Below, piece by piece: positions 11,184 to 21,553 of a stretch of DNA of 21,617 nucleotides. The translations under genes were made by a program, and so were the position numbers. The stretch comes from a virus. Within the stretch, counting starts at the first letter, position 1; each line of letters starts with the position of its first letter. Below the pieces are notes generated by a model. It saw only the letters and a program-made list of their open reading frames with translations, did not search any database and was not told the DNA's origin. The stretch lies in the IMG/VR virus record IMGVR_UViG_3300038369_000329, positions 1-21,617 of that record, one strand, 5' to 3'.

Positions 11184-11696
11184 ATGATTAAAATTGAAGA
11201 TAATTTTTTAAATACACAAGTATTTAAAAATATACAAGAACTTTATTTTAGTAATCAGATACCTTGGACTTATGGAGAAGTCGTATATGATCATGAATTG
11301 AAATCTGATGCATTTAAACTTGATAATTACCAATTTAGTCATCTTTTATATTCATATGAGCAACCATCATCAAATCTATTTGAACAAGTAGTGCCCGTGT
11401 TAAATTCAATTGATTTAGCAACTATATGTAAGGTTAAAGTTAATATGAATACAAGAACATCAAAAATAGTAGAACATGGATTTCATACTGATGTCCCATT
11501 TAAATGCAAAACAAGTATTTTATATCTAAATACAAATAATGGTTATACGATTTTTGAAGACGGAACTAAAATTGAAAGTATTGAAAATAGATTAGTGACT
11601 TTTGATTCTCACATAAAACATTCGGGTACATCATGTACAAATCAAAAAGTAAGATTAGTTCTTAATATGAATTACTTTGCATTTGACCCAACATAA
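11184..11696 (+). CDS. 2OG-Fe(II) oxygenase family protein
   Basis: The 170-residue protein matches the short phage 2-oxoglutarate/Fe(II)-dependent dioxygenase type. H101 and D103 (EHGFHTDVPF) form the HxD iron-binding pair. H146 (SHIKHSGTS) is the likely third iron ligand, although H143 is nearby, and R157 (KVRLVLNMNYF) fits the arginine that holds 2-oxoglutarate. SILYLNTNNGYTIFEDG gives the connecting core strands. Such enzymes couple decarboxylation of 2-oxoglutarate to hydroxylation of a protein, nucleic acid or small molecule; the substrate cannot be read from sequence. The gene is the only clear enzyme within the fibre block, 14 bases after the LamG fibre, with a late promoter-like motif at its stop. 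Modification of a virion protein is an inference from position only. Confidence 0.88.
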   Translation: MIKIEDNFLNTQVFKNIQELYFSNQIPWTYGEVVYDHELKSDAFKLDNYQFSHLLYSYEQPSSNLFEQVVPVLNSIDLATICKVKVNMNTRTSKIVEHGFHTDVPFKCKTSILYLNTNNGYTIFEDGTKIESIENRLVTFDSHIKHSGTSCTNQKVRLVLNMNYFAFDPT

Positions 11697-20001: not shown

Positions 20002-21138
20002 ATGAGTACATTAAAAGTAGACGCAATCAGACACAATAATGCAACGAGTGATGCAATCACAACACACTCAGATGGAACAGCATCCGCAAAAATAGCTGAT
20101 GTTGGAGGAAGTCAACTCTCTAATCGCAACCTTCAAGTCAACGGTGCGATGGTCATAGCTCAAAAAGCGACAACGGATACGGGATCTGAGGGTATAGCAA
20201 CTGTTGATAGATTTGGATTATCGACAGCAGGGGAAGATGAAGATTTGACACAGGCACAAGGTGATGTTGCAAGTGGAACTACACCTTATAGTTTAGGATT
20301 TAGAAAAACATATAAAATTACAAACGGAAACCAAACAAGTGGTGCTGGTGCTGATGATAGAGCTATTGTTCATACCACCTACGAATCACAAGATATTGCT
20401 AATTCTGGTTGGAATTACACTTCGAGTACTGGTTTTGTAACATTATCTTATTGGGCTAAGTCAAGTGTTGCACAGACTTTTTATCTAGCCTTGACAACTA
20501 GTGATGGATCAAGTTATCGTTATGCCACTCCAATTACTTTTACTTCTGCAGATACTTGGACTAAATTTACTCACAAAATTCCTGGCAATTCTAATTTACA
20601 ATTTGATCAGGATGCTGGTAGAGGTTTACAAATGTATTGGACATTGTTTAGAGGAACTAACACCACTGATAATAGTTTTACTATCAATCAATGGGCAGCA
20701 TACAATAGTTCAATAAGATACCCAGATATTACGTCAACATGGTGGACAACAAATGATTCAACATTTGAACTGACGGGAGTTCAATTTGAGGTTGGGGACA
20801 CACCGACTTCTTTTGAGCATCGCACCTATGGAGATGAACTCAGACGTTGCCAACGCTATTATGAAGAAACATATGTAATGACAGATGCTGGTAATTCTTA
20901 CGTAAGAGTTCCTGTTCTTTGGAAAGTTGAGAAAAGAGCTGCTGGAACTCCTGTCTCATACGCAAAAAGACCCGATGGAGTTGGAACTGGTGCAGCTAAT
21001 AAAGCATATCAAGCTAATGGTGAAAGAGATGCTGTATGTAATTACTCGTGGACAGGAGGCACAATGCTATTTGTTACTGGATATTCTAATAATTATGATA
21101 CTTTTGGAAATATTAGAGTTGACGTTGGCTCGTTTTAA
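20002..21138 (+). CDS. Tail fibre protein with carbohydrate-binding-like domain
   Basis: The 378-residue protein begins MSTLKVDAIRHNNATSDAIT (handle), then a phage fibre signature, SNRNLQVNGAMVIAQKATTD, near 40-60, with IATVDRFGLSTAGED. Residues about 90-280 look like a CBM-type jelly roll: SGWNYTSSTGFVTLSYWAKS, WTKFTHKIPG, WWTTNDSTFELTGVQFEVGD and TPTSFEHRTYGDELRRCQRY. The final 95 residues form a smaller domain ending TFGNIRVDVGSF. The NRNL.VNGAM and TSFEHR..G.EL..CQRYYE motifs are widespread in tail fibres of marine and enteric phages. It is the last structural gene of the block; the sigma-70 promoter and RNA locus begin 4 bases after its stop. Confidence 0.9.
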   Translation: MSTLKVDAIRHNNATSDAITTHSDGTASAKIADVGGSQLSNRNLQVNGAMVIAQKATTDTGSEGIATVDRFGLSTAGEDEDLTQAQGDVASGTTPYSLGFRKTYKITNGNQTSGAGADDRAIVHTTYESQDIANSGWNYTSSTGFVTLSYWAKSSVAQTFYLALTTSDGSSYRYATPITFTSADTWTKFTHKIPGNSNLQFDQDAGRGLQMYWTLFRGTNTTDNSFTINQWAAYNSSIRYPDITSTWWTTNDSTFELTGVQFEVGDTPTSFEHRTYGDELRRCQRYYEETYVMTDAGNSYVRVPVLWKVEKRAAGTPVSYAKRPDGVGTGAANKAYQANGERDAVCNYSWTGGTMLFVTGYSNNYDTFGNIRVDVGSF

Positions 21139-21142
21139 TAGC

Positions 21143-21171
21143 TTGACAAGTATTAAAAAATACATTATAAT
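21143..21171 (+). promoter_or_regulatory. Consensus sigma-70 promoter
   Basis: TTGACA (21143-21148) and TATAAT (21166-21171) are both perfect consensus hexamers, separated by exactly 17 bases. Initiation is expected near 21178. It is the only such promoter I see and contrasts with the late-type motifs elsewhere. It implies recognition by unmodified host RNA polymerase, as for T4-like early genes. Confidence 0.88.
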
Positions 21172-21177
21172 AGAAAA

Positions 21178-21275
21178 GTCTTTAGCATCCTTGTAGATTT
21201 GGGACTAAAGATACTCCCCTGTGGTGGGGGGAGTGTGTTGGTGGTAACACAAAGGGAGGGTATCCTCCCTTTTTT
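21178..21275 (+). ncRNA. Candidate structured small RNA or attenuated leader
   Basis: Between a perfect sigma-70 promoter and an intrinsic terminator lie about 100 bases with no convincing gene but four consecutive hairpins. Bases 21179-21185 pair with 21205-21211 (TCTTTAG/CTAAAGA). 21213-21219 pair with 21228-21234 (ACTCCCC/GGGGAGT). 21235-21239 pair with 21246-21250 (GTGTT/AACAC). 21254-21259 pair with 21264-21269 (terminator). Stems 1-3 abut almost without linker. The middle two loops both contain GGTGG. I do not recognise a tRNA or a known riboswitch. Either it is a free-standing early small RNA, or it is a leader that controls read-through into glutaredoxin, whose ATG lies 35 bases beyond the T-run. 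Confidence 0.6.
21254..21275 (+). terminator. Strong intrinsic terminator
   Basis: GGGAGG and CCTCCC form a perfect 6-pair stem around a GTAT loop, extendable by A-T pairs. It is followed by TTTTTT (21270-21275), then ATTTT. This is the clearest rho-independent terminator in the window. Confidence 0.88.
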
Positions 21276-21279
21276 ATTT

Positions 21280-21287
21280 TATAAATC
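21280..21287 (+). promoter_or_regulatory. Late promoter-like motif TATAAATC before glutaredoxin
   Basis: TATAAATC matches 7 of 8 positions of TATAAATA. It starts 5 bases after the T-run of the terminator and ends 23 bases before ATG 21311. It would let the glutaredoxin gene be transcribed late, independently of the RNA locus. Confidence 0.45.
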
Positions 21288-21310: not shown

Positions 21311-21553
21311 ATGAATTTCACTGTGTTTTCAAAGAAAGGATGTTCATATTGCGAAAAGGTAAAAAAGGTATTAGAGTTGACAAGTAGTAGTTTTGTGGTG
21401 TATACTTTAGGTGAACACTTTGATGAAAAGGCATTCACTGATGAATTTGGATATGGAACTACATTTCCACAGGTCATTTGTGATGGTAAAAAACTAGGAG
21501 GTACGGTTGAAACAGTTAAGTTCCTCAGAGAACAAAAAATCATCTCCGTCTGA
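21311..21553 (+). CDS. Glutaredoxin
   Basis: This 80-residue protein is a complete small glutaredoxin. It has the redox motif C11-S-Y-C14 after the first strand (MNFTVFSKKG), the cis-proline in TTFPQVI (P53), and the glutathione-binding GG in KLGGTVETVKFL (G63-G64). The length fits the 80-90 residue dithiol class. In phages such proteins pass electrons to ribonucleotide reductase or keep thiols reduced during infection; which applies here cannot be told, as no nrd gene is in the window. T4 nrdC is a functional analogue, but orthology is not shown. AAGG lies 12 bases upstream, a weak ribosome site. Its coding AGGAGG near 21496 may serve as the ribosome site for an overlapping next gene. Confidence 0.93.
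   Translation: MNFTVFSKKGCSYCEKVKKVLELTSSSFVVYTLGEHFDEKAFTDEFGYGTTFPQVICDGKKLGGTVETVKFLREQKIISV

Follow-up and report, generated by a model that had tools for sequence, protein, structure and literature searches.

A candidate stand-alone small RNA gene of T4-like cyanophages, located between tail-fibre-type genes and nrdC

A promoter, a series of hairpins and an intrinsic terminator found together in a viral genome fragment probably constitute an independent small RNA gene carried by T4-like cyanophages. The fragment is IMG/VR record IMGVR_UViG_3300038369_000329, whose 21,617 nt are referred to here as the window, and the analysis is derived from sequence throughout. The RNA recurs with covarying base pairs in related viruses and has no counterpart among catalogued RNAs, so it is very probably a genuine, previously undescribed viral small RNA. 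Computation established the anatomy of the gene, its covarying structure and, in several genomes, its independence from nrdC, the usual downstream neighbor.

The locus lies on the plus strand and begins with a sigma-70 (host-type) promoter at 21143-21171, in which TTGACA (21143-21148) and TATAAT (21166-21171) are separated by 17 nt. This is the single 12/12 match to the sigma-70 consensus in the region scanned, and only 0.019 perfect matches are expected by chance in the whole window. The 5′ end of the RNA is predicted at or near 21178, from which a molecule of ~97 nt would extend through four adjacent hairpins. H1 (21178-21212), identified by folding and covariation, comprises an outer stem, an inner UCC/GGA stem and the conserved loop UUGUANNUUU. 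H2 (21213-21234) presents a near-invariant hexaloop, GUGGUG, at 21221-21226, and the following H3 or linker (21235-21250) carries a conserved GUUGGUG at 21237-21243. The 3′ end is formed by an intrinsic terminator at 21251-21275, with a 9-bp stem, a stem-loop spanning 21251-21272 and a T-run at 21270-21275. The fold of 21178-21280 has an energy of -44.7 kcal/mol (z = -4.84), which none of 200 shuffled sequences reached, and with the terminator removed the RNA bodies of 78 homologues retain a mean z of -2.0.

A sequence-only reading of the window had drawn attention to this perfect promoter, to about 100 bases of near-continuous hairpins and to the terminator with its T-run, and each of these features is borne out by the analysis. 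That reading had also seen no convincing gene between promoter and terminator. There is no ATG between 21178 and 21275, and the indels that separate homologues are not multiples of three and would break any frame; the RNA region is therefore judged to be non-coding, and it did not prove to be the 5′ part of a conserved protein gene, a possibility that the reading had raised against itself. Its placement of the locus among late-type genes was only partly right. The locus does adjoin a long tail-fibre-type gene array, which ends at 21138, but it sits at the junction of this array and nrdC (21311-21553, plus strand), a glutaredoxin gene (Pfam PF00462, E = 2.9e-9) that lies outside the RNA gene. 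Just behind the terminator, at 21280-21286 on the plus strand, is TATAAAT, a T4-late-type promoter motif (PMC3037559) for this next gene. The window contains no tRNA genes. An 11/12 sigma-70-like site, TTGACA-18-TATACT, is present inside nrdC at 21377-21406.

Conservation of the stems in related phages, which the sequence-only reading had made a test of its proposal, was looked for and found. In a MAFFT alignment of 28 sequences that was built without reference to structure, 13 of the 25 base pairs show changes on both sides, and all five measures of structural conservation lie above the shuffled mean, four of them beyond all 500 shuffles. A second alignment of 78 distinct sequences was fitted to the covariance model and hence leans towards it, a bias from which the MAFFT result is free; here double changes occur in 18 of 25 pairs, 87.4% of cells are paired (77.8 ± 0.5 in shuffles), double-change cells number 219 (68 ± 9.5), and the covariation score is 0.322 (0.159 ± 0.006, with structures slid along the alignment scoring 0.06-0.10). 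The strongest stem is H2, with 99.2% of cells paired and double changes in seven of eight pairs, and the pair that closes its GUGGUG loop varies among U-G, G-U, A-U and U-A. H3 is paired in the clade of the window, and across all members 57% of its cells are paired; outside that clade, most members have a single-stranded linker bearing GUUGGUG here. The terminator is kept in homologues with a divergent stem sequence. The UGGUG shared by the H2 loop and the linker was found at both places in 53 of 53 members of a mostly pattern-selected set, but this invariance is broken among loci selected by nrdC, where the second copy reads UGAUG in L371, L373 and L374.

Among relatives of nrdC in IMG/VR, a matching promoter, hairpins and terminator precede the gene in dozens of contigs, and overall the promoter-RNA-terminator unit was found in more than 100 IMG/VR contigs of marine and freshwater lineages. 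A blastn search also located the complete unit in a cultured isolate, the freshwater Synechococcus phage S-SRM01 (Kyanoviridae). A loop pattern matched at least 119 viral contigs, mostly genuine copies with some chance matches, and at least 120 matches to an H1 pattern were listed; loci found in this way are biased towards the pattern used, and many IMG/VR contigs are near-copies of one another. To avoid this circularity, we also drew an RNA-blind sample of 80 phage loci picked by nrdC alone. A covariance model, whose E-values are rough, found the RNA in 39 of the 80, counting one weak and degraded match (L403). This apparently degraded version lies upstream of nrdC at 877-941, scores 25.7 bits and is devoid of GGTGG motifs. 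On the nrdC tree, presence of the RNA is clustered, requiring 6 changes, of which at least two are forced by well supported branches, as against 27 in shuffles, and the RNA-bearing part of the tree spans the lineages of both the window and S-SRM01.

The RNA was not found in the records of Syn9, P-SSM2, P-SSM5, S-PM2 and six other cyanophages. A model search of 299 cyanobacterial genomes (the order of a Synechococcus strain, under stricter filters) gave no homologue, so the RNA appears to be phage-specific. Pattern matches in bacterial genomes were judged by eye to be chance matches within coding sequence, and four whole cyanobacterial genomes among them gave zero model hits. Likewise, blastn matches of the RNA alone in sequences other than cyanophages cover promoter or terminator pieces only, and those in ACG-2014f cover only the terminator and TATAAAT, with no model hit in that genome. 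One further contig (L087, minus strand, 12680-12560) has a consensus-like promoter, the whole of H1 and only the 5′ half of H2, which run into a glycine-rich (GGT/GGA) tail-type reading frame; it looks like a truncated copy of the RNA with a recombination junction at a shared GGTGG motif.

The RNA is bounded by a promoter and an intrinsic terminator of its own, as an independent small RNA gene would be. In about 75 loci the promoter has 11-12 of 12 consensus matches and a 17-nt spacer; it falls to 10/12 in L036 and L039, and only the L107-type copies lack a recognizable promoter. The distance from the end of the -10 box to H1 is 7 nt nearly everywhere, with rare exceptions of 8-9 nt, and H1 should therefore be the very 5′ end of a transcript that consists of the RNA alone. 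In the L107-type copies (L107, L108, L113, L116, L168 and L187) the RNA and terminator are intact and lie shortly behind an 89-aa gene; an mRNA 3′ end is the possible source of such a copy. T4-like phages use host-type promoters early and TATAAAT-type promoters late (PMC5780444; PMC3037559), so the RNA would be early and nrdC would be served by a late-type promoter. The early timing is read solely from the host-type character of the RNA promoter.

Since most loci place the RNA ~35-60 nt upstream of nrdC, it is conceivable that the RNA is a 5′ leader of this gene, similar to a riboswitch or attenuator, such that nrdC is transcribed from the sigma-70 promoter and the hairpins determine whether the terminator forms. 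The order of promoter, structured RNA, terminator and gene is indeed the usual anatomy of a terminating leader. However, the RNA is INDEPENDENCE from nrdC in several genomes, where it is 4-7 kb away, elsewhere, or doubled. Two genomes (G004 and G005) have two RNA copies each, and in G004, G007 and G012 nrdC is 4-7 kb from the nearest copy. Other copies are unlinked to nrdC (L105/L122/L177 and the L107 type), a further sigma-70 promoter and a small gene coming next in those of the L105 type, and in L391 and L400 a 212-aa ORF is inserted between RNA and nrdC. The RNA thus persists intact without a fixed neighboring gene (L105, L107, L144, L391 and L400). Moreover, nrdC has its own late-type motif behind the terminator: TATAAAT lies between RNA and nrdC in homologues and is absent behind the L105, L107 and L144 copies.

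Folding offers the leader explanation some support of its own. When transcripts are cut at the terminator loop, the 5′ arm of the terminator pairs upstream in some members, and the 5′ arm of H2 shows a slight preference for the terminator 5′ arm of its own sequence over swapped arms (-9.5 versus -9.1 kcal/mol, 1 of 200 swaps, a comparison confounded by relatedness). This weak complementarity keeps a slight chance of a leader role. Nevertheless, the probability of upstream pairing ranges from 0.02 to 0.99 across members and is not conserved, the minimum free energy folds of all members examined contain the terminator, and no conserved antiterminator exclusive with the terminator was found among the folded members. 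The swap signal is also dwarfed by the H2 control in the same test (2.6 kcal/mol). Because of the unlinked and double copies, the TATAAAT before nrdC and the lack of a conserved antiterminator, the evidence favors an independent trans-acting small RNA, and we consider a leader unlikely. Two features support the stand-alone status proposed in the sequence-only reading: some copies have no link to nrdC, and the distance from promoter to H1 is fixed.

Less likely still is that the locus merely insulates transcription, as a promoter-driven terminator block that parts the late tail-fibre region from nrdC and yields a functionless RNA. The position at the junction and the intrinsic terminator would suit such a role, but a terminator alone would suffice for it, and the near-invariant unpaired motifs, the compensatory changes in H1 and H2 and the consensus promoter at fixed distance would go unexplained.

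If the RNA is an independent small RNA, we infer that it is a regulator. The host RNA polymerase, using its main sigma factor, would start at the consensus promoter, probably from the first minutes of infection, and produce a ~97-nt transcript that begins directly with H1 and stops at the intrinsic terminator. This RNA would then act in trans through the H1 loop and two unpaired, G/U-rich and nearly invariant motifs, GUGGUG in H2 and GUUGGUG in the linker or H3; all three are likely sites of contact with a partner. Candidate partners are C-rich (CACCA-type) sites in host RNA or an RNA-binding protein. Antisense pairing with mRNAs of the phage itself, such as nrdC or late genes, would be a plausible role for a linker that is unpaired and has a conserved motif, and yet it is quite improbable, as the RNA pairs no better with its own nrdC start region than with swapped ones (H1 region, -8.6 versus -9.7 kcal/mol; linker, -7.4 versus -7.2) and duplex energies with the start regions of predicted ORFs in three phage genomes (S-SRM01, G002 and G003) are no stronger than those given by shuffled RNA. 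Given these negative results for phage start regions, including that of nrdC, we favor a host partner, either RNA or protein.

The most far-reaching form of the preferred reading, a widespread family of trans-acting RNAs produced by T4-like cyanophages as soon as infection begins and directed at the host, is offered tentatively, as a real possibility that falls somewhat short of an even chance. A bolder version, in which the repeated UGGUG of H2 and the linker would pair with the CACCA at tRNA 3′ ends or with another CACCA-bearing host RNA and so affect the translation machinery, is weakened by the UGAUG in the second copy of L371, L373 and L374. The scan of phage start regions gave one outlier, a strong predicted site in G003 (-27 kcal/mol) upstream of the gene for a 761-aa secreted-type protein. 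It was rejected, since it forms the 3′ arm of a hairpin and occurs in a single genome. In the 211-kb phage genome L508, a long hairpin lies on the minus strand upstream of a 761-aa ORF, and one of its arms resembles the linker of the RNA (GGTGAGTTG). The L508 protein has a signal peptide and a beta-barrel-like C-terminus.

The RNA can be described as a putative new family within an established class, the phage small RNAs. None of the 4227 models of Rfam 15, among them wcaG, manA, PhotoRC-II and Glutamine, matches it at the curated gathering cut-off. Near-matches on 221 bases to DapZ (E = 0.005) and SraC (E = 0.017) reach about half to two thirds of the gathering scores and are unrepeated in homologues, and we regard them as chance matches between hairpins. 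No description of an nrdC-linked RNA was found in the literature searched, which consisted mostly of papers open without subscription. The wcaG, manA, PhotoRC-II and glnA motifs (Weinberg et al. 2010, PMC2864571; listed in PMC10665884) are likewise structured RNAs of T4-like cyanophages, but they are described as cis elements. Another intergenic non-coding RNA of a lytic T4-like cyanophage is CfrI of S-PM2 (Millard et al. 2010, cited after PMC12197685); this ~225-nt RNA is antisense in cis to psbA and has a linked homing endonuclease gene. In contrast, the present RNA is ~97 nt long, has its own sigma-70 promoter and terminator, lies between nrdC and a gene of tail-fibre type, and does not run antisense to psbA; the S-PM2 record gave no match to it. 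Independently transcribed phage small RNAs such as OOP of lambda, sar of P22 and VpdS of VP882 (reviewed in PMC12197685) are similarly short and are thought to work apart from a coding gene, although these come from temperate phages of other hosts and have no known sequence relation to the RNA of T4-like cyanophages considered here.

T4 itself makes two small stable RNAs, C and D, whose role is unclear. They are encoded in the tRNA cluster of that phage, whereas the window is free of tRNA genes, and the likeness is by description only. Oceans and lakes are rich in T4-like cyanophages, and the present RNA family is common to marine and freshwater lineages. The regulatory RNAs that the papers found report for such phages are either cis elements or antisense RNAs; this one would be a stand-alone family with conserved structure. 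As one cultured pair carries the RNA (S-SRM01 on Synechococcus KCZYC6), tests of expression, deletion and targets are directly feasible.

Two minor observations concern neighboring sequences. A match to the Glutamine riboswitch (RF01739) occurs downstream of nrdC in the same neighborhood in three loci, above the gathering score in L006 (2176-2224) and below it in L001 (4453-4504) and L039 (2320-2368). In the window, 11184-11696 encodes a 170-aa protein whose PHROGs family is named 'DNA endonuclease V'; it appears to resemble a 2OG-Fe(II) oxygenase more closely, with a prolyl-hydroxylase-like HTD...H pattern, and the family name may be wrong.
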